Shown here piece by piece: positions 4,671 to 21,637 of a stretch of 64,000 bases of DNA. Source of the stretch: Desulfamplus sp. (lineage in GTDB: Bacteria; Desulfobacterota; Desulfobacteria; Desulfobacterales; Desulfobacteraceae); assembly GCA_015232465.1 (NCBI GenBank), contig JADFZO010000001.1:1-64000 (forward strand), given 5' to 3'. How positions within the stretch are numbered: the stretch's first letter is position 1; each line of letters begins with the position of its first letter. Position numbers and translations under genes: made by a program. The notes below the pieces were generated by a model. It saw nothing but the letters and a program-made list of their open reading frames with translations. It was not told the DNA's origin and ran no database searches.

Positions 4671-7600
4671 TTAAAAGTTTTTTTTTTGACAGGAGCTGCT
4701 CTCACAAAGAGATGGCTCTTTTGTTGATGAGACCAAAATTTGCCCGCTCTTTTCAGAGTTATTGCCCATTAGATGAAGTGCAATCTCATCAATTGTCTTT
4801 AGCCGTCCAAGATCATCAGGCGATATTTGTGCTGCTTCTGGCAATTTCTCTTCAAGTTTGGATAGAATCTCAACCCGCTTTATTGAATCAATGCCAAGAT
4901 CAGACTCTATATCCATATCAGGGGTGAGCATCTCAACTGGAAAGCCCGTCAACTCGCTTATGGTCTCAAGTAAAATAGCCATGACTTTGTTGTTTTGGTT
5001 GTTATTTTCGTTGTTGATTAGCTCTTTTTGCTTGGCAATTTGAGTTGTCTCTTTTGGCAAAACGTCAATTTTAGCCTCTGTTCTATTGGCATGATTTTTA
5101 GGAATAAATGTGTTTGTTACTGGATTAGAGGCATTTTTACCATTATTTTTTGAATGCTCAACTATATGTTCAGGTTGAATCCTTGCTTGAGGAGGCTCTT
5201 CAATTCTTAGCTGTTCAACATTGTGAGTATGGTGAAGCTCTACAACAGTTGGGCTTGTGCCAACACGCATCTGATTTGGAATCTCGTGATTTGTTGAAAC
5301 TCTTGAGATTGTTGTTGGCTGCTGATAGTGATGAATATTTTGGTTGTTGTGATTTAGAGATAAGATTGCATTTTCAGCAAAAAAACGGGTCTGCTCCATC
5401 ATTGCTTGCAGTGTTTGGCTTGCTGCTGCTTGAGTCTCAAGAAATTTTTCATGTGCAAGGGCTGTTCGTGTCTGAAGCTCTTGCATTGAATCCATACCCT
5501 TTTGCACCATCTGCATTGCACTAAAAACAAGTGATGGTGGCTGTGAAATATCCCCTTTATTGTTCATGGTAGTTCCTCTTCCTTTTTCCTCTTTTTTGTT
5601 TGGACTATATATTTTTTTTGGCTCAATAATATGAGCCTCTAATTTAGGTTTTAAGTTAGGTTGGTTATCTGATTGCAAATTAGTAGGCGATTGCAAATTA
5701 GTTGATGGGTCAGAGACTAATACTTTTTGAGGCTTAGGCTTTATATTTGCCCCAGTTAAAGCAACTCTCATCATTTTTTTTGCAGGCTCTTTAACGCTAT
5801 CTTCCCACTGATCCAGCATAACTGTAATTCCACAAGCAGCAAGAGAGCAAAGAGTTGAGGCTAAATCGTAAATCGCCCCATTTTTTCCAGCAGATGAGTC
5901 AAAAGCAAAAGATAAGATTTTATTTGAACTCTCAATATTTTTAGACTCTAAAATAGATTTAGTAAGCCCTGTTAAGACAGCCTTAGGTCCAACCTCAATA
6001 AACGCTGTGATGTTTTTCTTTAACATGACCTCAATATTGGACATAAAGCAGACAGGATTTATAAGGTGCTCCCCAAGTATCTTTTTTGCAGCTTCACCAT
6101 CTAATGGGTAATCTTTTCCTGTGGTGTTAGAAAAGACAACTATGTTTGAGCCGTTAGATGGCTTAATCTCAATTGATGATACAATCTCTTTAAAAGGGGC
6201 AACTGCATTTTCAACAAGTTTGCTGTGAAATGCTGCTGCAACAGGCAGTTGAACGCCTCGCACCTTTCTATCTTTGCATATTTTTGATACCCTTTTTATC
6301 TCATCACTTTTGCCAGATAGCACAATCTGATTTGGGCTATTTATATTTGCAACAACAAGATCAAGATTTTCTGCCTTTATAAGCTCTTCTACATCTTCTA
6401 AAGATGCTTTTAGGGCAAACATACTGCCTCTATCTTCGCCATTTAAAGCAGCACCAGCCATAAGTCTGCCTCTTTGAGAGGCTAAATTTAAAAATGTATT
6501 TTCATCTATCCAGTTTGCAGCACAAAGGGCACTTAACTCGCCAAAGCTGTGTCCGCACACTGCATCTGGCTTTATGCCAAATCTTGCAAGAATTTTTACC
6601 ATACCAAGTGTTATAGCACCAATTGCAGGCTGGGCAACATCAGTGCTTCGTAGATTCTCCTCTGCACTCTTTTCATCTTGAGCATAAGGGGGCTGGCTAA
6701 ATATGTAATCTTTTAATTTTACCTTTTTATCATTTAGCCTGTTAAATATCTCTTCTGCCTCTTCAAGTGCCTCAAGAGCCTCTGGAAAGATGGAGATTAA
6801 ATCTCTTGCCATATCAACATATTGGCTACCTTGACCAGGAAATAAAAATCCAACTTTACCCTTATGCTCCCCTGAGCCGTAAAATATCCCTGAAAACTCT
6901 TTATCGCTCTTATCAGATTTGGTTATTTTATTGTGATTGTTCAATGAGTCAATATAATCAATAGCCTTTAAAGCCTTTTTTACGGGATCATCTTTATCAG
7001 TTATCAAGATCAAAAGCCTGTGCTTGTAAGATGATTTAAACTCTTTTCTCAAATTCTGAGACTCCCAAGCGATTTTATGCTCCATTTCGTAGGAGTCTAA
7101 CCCTTCGCCATTTTTTAAGAGTGCAGATGGCTCAATTGACTCCTTAAACTTTAAGATGCTCTTTTTTAAATCCTCTTTTGTGTTGGCACAAAATGGGGCG
7201 ATCTGAACAGTGCCGTCCCAAGATACATGCTCTTTTTTGGGGAGATACTCTTCAAGAAGAGCGTGAAAATTAGAGCCTCCAAATCCAAAAGCACTCACTC
7301 CGCACCTTCTTGGGTGATCTTTAGATTTAACCCAAGGTTTTGCAAGGTGGTTAAGATAAAATGGCGACTTTGTGATCTCAATTTCAGGATCAGGCTCTTC
7401 TGCTTTAAGTGTTGGTGGGATCACCTTGTGATAGAGGCTTAAAACAGCTTTGATAAGACCCGCAGCACCAGCAGCAGCTTTTGCATGACCAACCATTGAC
7501 TTAACAGAGCCAATTGCAGATTTAGAGTTTTTTTCTGAAAATAGAGACTTTAGAGCTGTAATCTCAATCTTATCGCCAACACGGGTTCCAGTTCCATGTG

Positions 7601-18216: not shown

Positions 18217-18858
18217 TTATAGCTCAATAATCCTATTTTGAATGGCAAATCTTGAAAGTTCTGCATTATTTCTAAGATTTAGCTTTTTTAATATTCTTGA
18301 TCTGTAGGTATCTACGGTCTTTACACTGATGTGGTAGCTCTCTGCAATTTCATGATTTGTCTGACCTAATGCAAGTTGACGCAGAACTTGAAGCTCTCTC
18401 ATTGATAGAGCCTCACTGCCTGATTTGCTACTCTCGCCTCGAACAACACGCAAAGCAAGTGCCTCGCTTGCCTTTTCAGTAAGATAGCGACCCCCTGAAT
18501 AGAGCTTTTTTACAGCATCAACAAGCTGCTCTGGTGCAGACTGTTTTGTAACATAGCCCATTGCACCAGCCTCAACAGCCCGAACAACATACTGCTCCTC
18601 ATCGTGCATGGTCAAAATTAGAACAGGTATTGATGGCATCTGAAATTTAAGTTGAGATACAACCTCAAGTCCGTCCATTCCGGGCGGCATTGAAATATCG
18701 ACAACAGCAACATCTGGTTTGAATTTAAGAGCCTTTTGTATTGCCTCATCGCCATTAGAAGCCTCAGCAACAACCTCCATCTCTCCGCTCTCTTGAATGA
18801 TACGGCGAAGCCCTTCACGGACAATTTTATGGTCATCTGCAAGTAGAACTTTAATCAT
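18217..18858 (-). CDS. NarL/FixJ-family response regulator
   Basis: 213 residues: a receiver domain (residues 1-120; acidic pocket LLADDHK, phospho-Asp in VAVVDISMPPGMDG, Lys in VTKQSA) and a LuxR-type helix-turn-helix (about 145-205; SMRELQVLRQLALGQTNHEIA). It lies 56 bases after the histidine kinase gene on the same strand and about 200 bases before dctP, so it most likely controls the adjacent TRAP operon. No operator could be identified with confidence in the 18020-18216 gap. Confidence 0.94.
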   Translation of the reverse strand: MIKVLLADDHKIVREGLRRIIQESGEMEVVAEASNGDEAIQKALKFKPDVAVVDISMPPGMDGLEVVSQLKFQMPSIPVLILTMHDEEQYVVRAVEAGAMGYVTKQSAPEQLVDAVKKLYSGGRYLTEKASEALALRVVRGESSKSGSEALSMRELQVLRQLALGQTNHEIAESYHISVKTVDTYRSRILKKLNLRNNAELSRFAIQNRIIEL

Positions 18859-18914
18859 ATCAAAGAGTTCTCCATCTTTTTTTAAAATCTAATACCTTAA
18901 CCACAGCAGATGTT

Positions 18915-21092
18915 TTATGAGATATTTAGGCTACACACAATTTTTGTTCCAATGTTTAGCTCTGAAAATATCTCCAATTTTCCGCCAACTAAGGTTGCAC
19001 GCTCTCTCATTCCAGTTAGCCCTAAACCATGATACTCCCTATTTTCAACAGATGAAAAACCGCAGCCATTATCTTCAACACTCAATTTTAAGCACCCTTT
19101 ATCATTAGAATCTTTTGGCAGCTCTGCTGTAAGATCAACTGAAATTTCAGTAGCTTTTGAGTGTTTTAGTGCGTTTGTCAAAGCCTCTTGAGCTATTCTG
19201 TAAAGTGCAGTTGCAACAGTGTCATCAATCTCTGGAATTGGGGTATGACGAAACAGAAACCAGACATCTGAGCGTTTTTCAAAATCACGCACAAGAGACT
19301 CTAAAGCATCAACAAGACCAAGATCATCAAGAAGCCCAGGTCTTAGACGAAACGCCATAGCTCTAACATCTGCAATTGTGTCATCAATAAGAGAGCAGAT
19401 GCGACTTGCCCGATTAGCAGCATCTGGATCAATTGGCTCAAGATACTTTTCAAGCCACACGCTATCCATTTTAAGTGCTGTAAGAACCTGCCCTAAATGG
19501 TCATGCAGCTCCCTTGCAACTGCTCGCCGCTCATTTTCATGTGCTGCCATTATATTGCCAGATAGTTTTCTTAACTGATCTTGAACACGTTTTAGCTCCT
19601 CTGTTCGCTCCTCAACCTGCTGTTCAAGATCAAGAGAGTAGCGAGATAATCTCTCTTGTGCTAACTCAAGATCGTGCTGTGCCTGATTTTTTTCTGTAAC
19701 ATCAACGCTTACAGCAAGAGACCTTACAACTTTTCCCGTCTCATCTCTAACTCCATAACACGATAGAAGAATCTCAATCTCTTCGCCACTCTTTTTAACA
19801 TAGTTATATGGAACATCTTTGCAAAAACCAGTTTTAAAAAAATAGGGGAAAATAACATCTTCAGCATATTTTCTTGACGATTCATTGTAAAAATCTGTCA
19901 ATTTTTTTCCAATAACCTCATCTCTTGAGTATTCCATCTTTTCAAGCCAAAAATCGCTGACTCTAATAATTTTGCCCTCAGTATCAATCGAGTGTAGCAT
20001 CACTGGAGTTTTATGGTAGATGTGTCTGTAACGAGCCTCATTTAATCTTAGCTCATTTTCAGCCTTTTTTCGCCTAAATATCTCTTGAAGAGCCTTTCTG
20101 TAGAGAATAAAAACAGAGATTCCAATAAATATGGATATAATAAGAGTAACCTGCCCAATTACCCGAATAAATGGGTCTGCAAGCTCACGTGAAATCTCTT
20201 TAAGGCTTCTTAAATGGACTATTTTCCAACCAGGGTACCCATCAAGAGCCATCTGAGAGTAGAGGTATTTTTGCCTATTTTGATCAATAACGTAGCCATT
20301 ATTTAGCTGTGAAAAACCAGCCCAGCTCCAATCAATATTGCCAAATTGACGGGTGGAGTTGATCTTTTCAATCTCCTCTTTATTAAGCTGCCATAAAAGC
20401 ATTAATTTAAGCTCATCGTGGTTGGAGATAAATATAACGCCGTTTGGGTCGCTAACCAACAGTATCCCTTCTGAATCTGCAAATAGCTTTGATTCGATCA
20501 TCTCAACAGATGCCTTCATTACAGCCACGCCAATAATTTTGCGATTTATATTTCTATCCTCAGATTCAAAAGATTTAGAGTTATCAATAAGATTTGGGAA
20601 GTCATAAATTGGGTGGCTATAATAGACCCCTCTTTTTCTTGATGTTGTTCCAAGTGCAAGATATGTTGATGGTCTATCTGCAATTGCCTCTATAAAGTAT
20701 GGTCTAAATGCAAAATTTTGTCCCACAAAGCTGTCTGGCTCATCTCTGTTGCTTGAGGCTATTGTGTTGCCTAAGTTATCCATAAGATAGCAGACCTCAA
20801 GGTTTAGCGATTGTGCAAAGTTATCAAGAATAGAGTTTGCCCTGTTTATCTCTTTATTTAGCTTTAGAGCCTCTTTTAACTCTTTTAGTCCAGCAAGTGC
20901 CTTTACAGGCTTTACATGCTCTGAGAGCGAAGATGTAAGCTGTCTATTAAAGAGTTCAAGTCTTGTGTTTGCATGGCTTTCTGCCTGCTGAAATGCAGCT
21001 TGTCTTAAAGAGTGGTAGTATAAACCTCCTCCTGCAGATGCAGACAAAACAGCAAGAATTGCTAAAACTAATATTATTATTCTTAATCGCAT
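18915..21092 (-). CDS. Sensor histidine kinase with DctB-like periplasmic sensor and NarL-type kinase core
   Basis: 725 residues. Membrane helices are at about 7-28 and 317-338. Between them is a double-Cache sensor strongly resembling DctB: LMDNLGNTIASSNRD, then SFVGQNFAFRPYF, then ALGTTSRKRGVYYSHPIYD. A PAS domain follows (about 355-475), then a coiled coil, then a HisKA_3 domain (AVARELHDHLGQVLTALKMD, His near 530) and a HATPase domain (DNGCGF, GLGLTGMRERATLVGG). Classical DctB has a HisKA core and pairs with an NtrC-type, sigma-54-dependent regulator. Here the sensor is joined to the core that pairs with LuxR-type regulators, which fits the NarL-family gene directly downstream. It probably detects carboxylates outside the cell. 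Confidence 0.93.
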   Translation of the reverse strand: MRLRIIILVLAILAVLSASAGGGLYYHSLRQAAFQQAESHANTRLELFNRQLTSSLSEHVKPVKALAGLKELKEALKLNKEINRANSILDNFAQSLNLEVCYLMDNLGNTIASSNRDEPDSFVGQNFAFRPYFIEAIADRPSTYLALGTTSRKRGVYYSHPIYDFPNLIDNSKSFESEDRNINRKIIGVAVMKASVEMIESKLFADSEGILLVSDPNGVIFISNHDELKLMLLWQLNKEEIEKINSTRQFGNIDWSWAGFSQLNNGYVIDQNRQKYLYSQMALDGYPGWKIVHLRSLKEISRELADPFIRVIGQVTLIISIFIGISVFILYRKALQEIFRRKKAENELRLNEARYRHIYHKTPVMLHSIDTEGKIIRVSDFWLEKMEYSRDEVIGKKLTDFYNESSRKYAEDVIFPYFFKTGFCKDVPYNYVKKSGEEIEILLSCYGVRDETGKVVRSLAVSVDVTEKNQAQHDLELAQERLSRYSLDLEQQVEERTEELKRVQDQLRKLSGNIMAAHENERRAVARELHDHLGQVLTALKMDSVWLEKYLEPIDPDAANRASRICSLIDDTIADVRAMAFRLRPGLLDDLGLVDALESLVRDFEKRSDVWFLFRHTPIPEIDDTVATALYRIAQEALTNALKHSKATEISVDLTAELPKDSNDKGCLKLSVEDNGCGFSSVENREYHGLGLTGMRERATLVGGKLEIFSELNIGTKIVCSLNIS

Positions 21093-21227
21093 ATTTTTTT
21101 ATTGATTTTGCTTTAAATTGAAAGTGTTGCAAAAGATATTTAGCCTAAACATAAAGCGAACTAACTTTGGTTGTTCTATCTATTTTAAGAGTTGGTTTGT
21201 CAACAGTTAAGATTTAAAAAATCATAG

Positions 21228-21233
21228 TATAAT
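21228..21233 (+). promoter_or_regulatory. Possible -10 box for the cold-shock gene
   Basis: A perfect TATAAT lies about 204 bases before the cspA ATG. No good -35 sits at 16-18 bases; TTAAGA at 21207-21212 gives a 15-base spacer and TTGTCA at 21197-21202 a 25-base one. The leader length would suit a cold-shock mRNA. The assignment is tentative. Confidence 0.35.
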
Positions 21234-21300
21234 AAAATAACTTTAGTAATATCTTAAGGATCGTTTAAAAAAATACTTGATTTATTGTTGGTTAAGTAAT

Positions 21301-21430
21301 AATCTCCTTGCCGTAAGTCAAGGTAAGGTTTCGTTCTAAAGGGAAGTCTAAAGTAAAAAAGATCCATTTGTGAAAGAGGCAAGCACCTTGAGTTTTTGGA
21401 ACTATATTATTTTATTTTTTTAAGGAGATT
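21301..21430 (+). promoter_or_regulatory. Structured cspA leader with anti-Shine-Dalgarno element
   Basis: AATCTCCTT at 21301-21309 is a perfect 9-base complement of the cspA ribosome-binding region AAGGAGATT at 21422-21430. The same upstream segment can pair instead with CAAGG (21319-21323) or with GGCAAG (21378-21383, via CTTGCC 21307-21312), and TCAAGGT (21318-21324) can pair with ACCTTGA (21385-21391). Mutually exclusive folds of this kind are typical of temperature-responsive cold-shock leaders. This covers most of the 344-base gap before cspA. Confidence 0.55.
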
Positions 21431-21436
21431 GTCAAA

Positions 21437-21637
21437 ATGGCAGATGGTATCGTAAAATGGTTTAATGATTCAAAAGGTTTTGGTTTTATTGAGCAGGAAA
21501 ATGGACCAGATGTGTTTGTTCACCACACTGGAATCAATGCAAGTGGTTTTAAATCCCTAAACGAAGGTGACCGTGTTAAATTTGATATTGAGCAGGGTCA
21601 AAAAGGACCTGCTGCGGTTAATGTTACTGTTATGTAA
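21437..21637 (+). CDS. cspA: Cold-shock protein, CspA family
   Basis: 66 residues, the full length of a single cold-shock domain. It carries RNP1 (KGFGFIE) and RNP2 (DVFVHH), the aromatic RNA-binding patches. The start has a strong AAGGAG 9 bases upstream. It acts as a single-stranded nucleic-acid chaperone in the cytoplasm. It is monocistronic: a strong intrinsic terminator follows, and a long leader with alternative base-pairing precedes it. Whether it is truly cold-induced or constitutive cannot be read from the protein. Confidence 0.97.

Follow-up and report, generated by a model that had tools for sequence, protein, structure and literature searches.

Cold-shock leaders are the textbook example of messenger RNA whose fold opens in the cold, and to our knowledge few examples of such cold-opening leaders are known. 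The window considered here, the whole 64,000-nucleotide stretch of DNA that was analysed, comes from a Desulfamplus genome and contains a csp gene whose product is 97% identical to that of its best named relative. A first-pass annotation read the leader of this gene as an RNA thermoswitch analogous to that of E. coli cspA but apparently of different sequence, built around a nine-base segment complementary to the Shine-Dalgarno (SD) sequence. The locus raises the question of whether the leader holds a switch at all, and if so which of its segments pair and when. The gene and its upstream signals are the following:

21277..21282, + strand: TTGATT, csp promoter -35 element, conserved in every congeneric locus of the alignment
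21300..21305, + strand: probable -10 element TAATCT, at 17-nt spacing, overlapping the segment in the next line
21301..21309, + strand: AATCTCCTT, the nine-nucleotide anti-SD of the first-pass annotation; exact complement, absent in congeners, judged coincidental
21437..21637, + strand: csp, cold-shock domain protein of 66 amino acids
21665..21696, + strand: intrinsic terminator of csp

Elsewhere in the window, adjacent two-component genes on the minus strand (18217-21092) encode a NarL-type regulator and a PAS/UhpB-type kinase; the pair resembles MctR/MctS and scores below their cut-offs.

The nine-base complement and the csp promoter

All the bases and positions on which the earlier reading was built are correct: AATCTCCTT at 21301-21309 is the exact reverse complement of AAGGAGATT at 21422-21430, and CAAGG (21319-21323), GGCAAG (21378-21383), TCAAGGT (21318-21324) and ACCTTGA (21385-21391) are each in place. 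The nine-base match had been called unlikely by chance; it is improbable, though only modestly so, and it was chosen after the fact. In dinucleotide shuffles a nine-nucleotide complement to the nine-nucleotide SD segment arises with p ~0.000-0.004, the value becomes 0.03-0.04 when the target is instead the 21 nucleotides around the SD, and some self-complement of 9 bp is present in 8% of shuffled leaders.

Congeneric sequences place this segment in the promoter. AATCTCCTT occurs in none of the eight congeneric sequences aligned through the stretch (seven of them distinct loci), and these carry TACGCT, TACGAT or TAGCAT at the place of the -10 element with the same 17-nt spacing; more distant relatives have TTGAC(T/A)-N16-TATAAT at the homologous place, followed after a median of 39 bases by the conserved core described below. 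Because the segment overlaps a -10 element that aligns across the genus, most of it is expected to precede the transcript start, predicted from the promoter sequence near 21311, and so to lie outside the RNA. A transcript starting downstream of 21309, the very case that the first-pass annotation had held against its own proposal, is therefore the likeliest one. An alternative upstream promoter (21207-21233, TTAAGA-N15-TATAAT) may exist, with a -35 element that is not conserved in congeners. If a transcript did begin at 21301, pairing of AATCTCCTT with the SD, an exact complement of nine nucleotides, would appear in the minimum-energy fold; yet computation gives the conserved closed pairing described below an advantage in stability of 4.5-7.4 kcal/mol over it, even in a transcript that begins before 21301. 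Given this, the promoter overlap and the absence from congeners, we rejected AATCTCCTT as a switch element: that it pairs with the SD is highly improbable, and it is probably part of no RNA switch.

A conserved element in csp leaders

A different element in the same leader proved to be widespread. Leaders from the 80 closest csp genes of the genome collection were examined, and most of them share a core, GGTTTCGTTCTgAAGGAAAGATCCATTTGTCAAAGTGGCAACCTGAAGTTTGGAACTAT; in this window the conserved structured RNA spans 21327-21440, and its parts are:

21327..21332, + strand: 5' arm of predicted helix P1, GGTTTC (RNAalifold consensus on 59 leaders; pair counts)
21336..21342, + strand: 5' arm of predicted helix P1b, CTAAAGG (RNAalifold consensus; pair counts)
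21346..21360, + strand: extra segment of ~14 nt within the loop of the core (around TCTAAAGTAAAAAA), which congeners lack
21364..21369, + strand: CCATTT, conserved loop segment that could pair with the start-codon bases AAATGG (21435-21440)
21378..21391, + strand: arm b, GGCAAGCACCTTGA, putative anti-RBS arm, with two predicted partners: the 5' arms of P1b/P3 (open) and the ribosome-binding site (closed)
21386..21392, + strand: 3' arm of P1b, CCTTGAG, overlapping the anti-RBS arm (RNAalifold consensus; pair counts)
21398..21403, + strand: 3' arm of P1, GGAACT (RNAalifold consensus; pair counts)
21420..21433, + strand: region c, TTAAGGAGATTGTC, ribosome-binding region, UUAAGG pairing with CCUUGA and UUGUC with GGCAA

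A model of the leader core (R1) was used for genome searches. It matches the source genome in one place, the window; in the class it has matches in 333 of 390 genomes, the most copies in one genome being 11, and in a sample drawn from across the phylum it has matches in 34 of 297, the 263 genomes of that sample without a match being taken as outgroup control. About 90 matches were examined, and all precede csp except one that is cut off at a contig end. The element thus occupies the place expected of a csp-leader thermoswitch, in the leader of a csp gene with a promoter predicted upstream. The second csp gene of the source genome (L002, at G000:C104:5805-5996) is without it, and its upstream region gave no profile match. 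In another genome two copies lie 538 bases apart on the same strand (G178:C98:4457-4543 and 4995-5081, minus strand), an arrangement suggestive of csp genes in tandem, every one preceded by a leader of its own. Rfam gave no match to the leader, and no description of the element was found in the literature searched, in which coverage of subscription literature was thin.

By its sequence, the copy in the window is a degraded example. It scores 36.5 bits against ~62 in most congeners (ten genomes of the genus searched), and relative to these it carries the extra loop segment and has lost ~75 nt between promoter and core, including an upstream hairpin, P0. This GC hairpin precedes the core in most relatives, and with a U-rich tract it might terminate transcription, Csp acting as antiterminator. 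In favour of such an attenuator, P0 segments fold more stably than their shuffled versions do (median z -1.7, with 80% of them below -1), and in L031, L043, L063 and L070 the hairpin is followed by GATTTTTTT or GGTTTTTTT, ~85-110 bases before the ATG, in the manner of an intrinsic terminator. In most relatives, however, the tract after P0 is GGTTTCGTTC, with no U-run, the hairpin is entirely lost in the window, and attenuation leaves the pairing of b with c unexplained; we consider it very unlikely.

Two predicted pairings of one segment

The first of the two pairings of b would form a hairpin with the upstream arm. Run unaided on 59 leaders, RNAalifold returned P1 (GGUUUC/GGAACU) and P1b (CU..AG/CU..AG) as the consensus; pair counts over 57 leaders find 94.1% of cells paired, compared with 29-55% in slid versions of the register, and changes on both sides in 7 of 15 pairs, compared with 2.3 in shuffles. 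In the window, GGUUUC (21327-21332) would pair with GGAACU (21398-21403) and CUAAAGG (21336-21342) with CCUUGAG (21386-21392), and the predicted fold, in which b is held in this way, leaves the ribosome-binding site free. The predicted competing partner of the arm at 21378-21391 is 21327-21342 plus the loop. The earlier reading had named 21319-21323 and 21378-21383 as competing partners; the latter falls within the conserved anti-SD arm, but the former is not the competitor, and the pair TCAAGGT/ACCTTGA, thought to support the open form, is absent or not conserved in congeners. As a terminal pair of the hairpin, CCA:UGG was discarded, being broken in several leaders by eye; UGUC:GRCA fits better, yet breaks in some leaders.

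The second pairing would join b to the ribosome-binding region. In the closed fold predicted for the window, CCUUGA (21386-21391) pairs with UUAAGG (21420-21425), GGCAA (21378-21382) with UUGUC (21429-21433), and CCAUUU (21364-21369) with AAAUGG (21435-21440). Across leaders the consensus of b, AGUGGCAxCCU, is complementary to c of the same leader, AGGxUGUCACU, and compensations can be seen by eye in the alignments, with GCGAUA facing UAUCGU in L047, GUGAUAUCC facing GGAUGUCGC in L041 and GUUACGUCCUCC facing GGAGGAUGUAAC in L063. Double-changed cells number 19, compared with 12.0 +/- 2.7 in shuffles (1/500); the covariation score is unexceptional (71/500 shuffles). When compensatory branches are counted on a tree from which b and c were left out, the proposed register has 8 and every other register 0-3; 75% of the cells of the proposed register are paired, against at most 55% elsewhere. 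Duplexes of b and c from one leader are stronger than swapped ones (-12.4 vs -11.4 kcal/mol, z -6.2), the reversed-sequence controls giving z -3.0 and -1.3 at absolute values of -6.6 and -7.1.

The tree-based and swap tests allow for relatedness between sequences as far as they can. The control value of -3.0 shows that some of this signal comes from shared ancestry, and because the control already has signal, we regard the b:c covariation as moderate, supported rather than proven. Since the SD core hardly varies, the CCU in P1b already accounts for part of the complementarity. Both pairings of b, with the upstream arm and with c, are supported by covariation.

Conservation of the bases between SD and start codon also depends on the leader. 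The spacer before ATG is usually free to vary; here 88% of the 146 csp genes with the leader have the motif G[TC][CT][AG], compared with 24% of the 25 scored as leaderless. L008, L015 and L076 (from two Desulfoluna species and a relative), which were scored leaderless, have a strongly diverged csp leader barely seen by the profile, and keep GUGAC opposite the spacer GUCAC. The CAU/AUG pairing is kept in most leaders; no covariation was found for CCAU:AUG, and none between CCAU and codon 2.

These observations bear on two other accounts of the element. If the hairpin were a stable structure merely protecting the mRNA from decay, with the complementarity to the ribosome-binding site incidental, P1 might be expected to be the best supported helix, as it is; the compensatory b:c changes and the leader-dependent conservation of the SD-AUG spacer speak against this account, which we find distinctly unlikely. 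The leader could also be a conserved binding site for Csp, with hairpin and AU-rich linker bound by the protein in negative autoregulation and no direct role for temperature. Csp proteins bind single-stranded RNA and act as RNA chaperones, a U-rich linker precedes the SD in the alignments, and at the loci checked the element stands only before csp genes; binding alone, however, leaves both the b:c covariation and the leader-dependent spacer unexplained. As the whole explanation it is unlikely, though less so than decay protection or attenuation, and Csp binding with negative autoregulation is compatible with a switch and can coexist with one.

A proposed switch and its relation to known systems

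Computed folds and covariation together point to two mutually exclusive folds that differ in access to the ribosome-binding site. Folding was predicted with one energy model without pseudoknots, the complete leader including 24 coding bases. At 37 C, the minimum-energy fold contains P1 in 125 of 140 nascent cores and in only 15 of 140 complete leaders, and it contains b:c in 119 of the complete leaders; at 5 C the complete leaders show a slight shift toward the open form (P1 in 25/140, b:c in 108/140). From the folds predicted at nascent and complete length, the leader would therefore be open first and closed later. At equilibrium the models prefer closure at all temperatures from 5 to 37 C, and because thermodynamics favours it throughout, an open state in the cold would need kinetic trapping or a protein.

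Taken together, these results make it probable that three competing segments of the csp leader act as a translational RNA switch. The segments would be a (GGTTTC...CTAAAGG...TTTGT), b (GGCAAGCACCTTGA) and c (TTAAGGAGATTGTC, then AUGG). In the emerging RNA, a and b would form the extended hairpin P1/P1b and leave c free; once transcribed, c could take over b, and the loop CCAU would pair with AUG, so that SD, spacer and start codon were all sequestered. By analogy with E. coli cspA, and with the csp leaders of Listeria and S. aureus, slow strand exchange would hold the open hairpin longer in the cold and give cold-induced Csp synthesis, and Csp, which melts RNA, may when abundant bring about closure of the leader of its own gene. 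More tentatively, the csp leaders of Desulfobacterales may constitute an undescribed RNA family in which b alternates between the upstream arm and SD, spacer and AUG, opening then closing, with cold keeping it open; P1 and b:c may also coexist as a pseudoknot. Of the thermoswitch first suggested for this leader, then, the idea of a switch with alternative folds and a sequence different from that of E. coli cspA has strong comparative support; the elements named for it have not.

Such a leader switch would offer a means of regulation in anaerobes for which few tools exist. Most genomes of a large sulfate-reducing order carry the element, often in several copies, and it supplies hundreds of natural variants, which allow tests of the closed and open pairings by covariation and leader swaps.

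Among known families, the cspA thermoregulator (RF01766) scores 49.7 bits on the whole gene against a cut-off of 78, from coding region and terminator, with no match to the leader alone, and exceeds its cut-off in none of 21 genomes (the source genome and 20 relatives). Membership was rejected: the match is to the coding region, and the model also matches control genomes as distant as Haloferax. As for melting-type RNA thermometers (ROSE, FourU), no Rfam family exceeds its cut-off within the window.

The leader likely acts like a csp leader switch. In B. subtilis cspC, expression is altered by point mutations within or close to a cold-shock box (PMC8307031), and by that description cspB and cspC resemble the present genes in having conserved boxes in their leaders, although the boxes are short, unlike the present element. 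In the thermoswitches described for Listeria cspA and for S. aureus cspB/cspC (review, PMC8155936), alternative leader structures likewise control access to the SD, in phyla other than that of the present leader. The E. coli cspA mRNA folds in one way at 37 C and in another, exclusive of the first, at 10 C (Giuliodori 2010, summarised in PMC4166951). The present leader differs from that thermosensor in sequence and in pairing, and resembles it in being a csp leader where exclusive conformations of leader and coding region would change access to the start site; it is probably a translational switch of the cspA type with a different sequence, in which temperature would be the signal and cold would favour translation.
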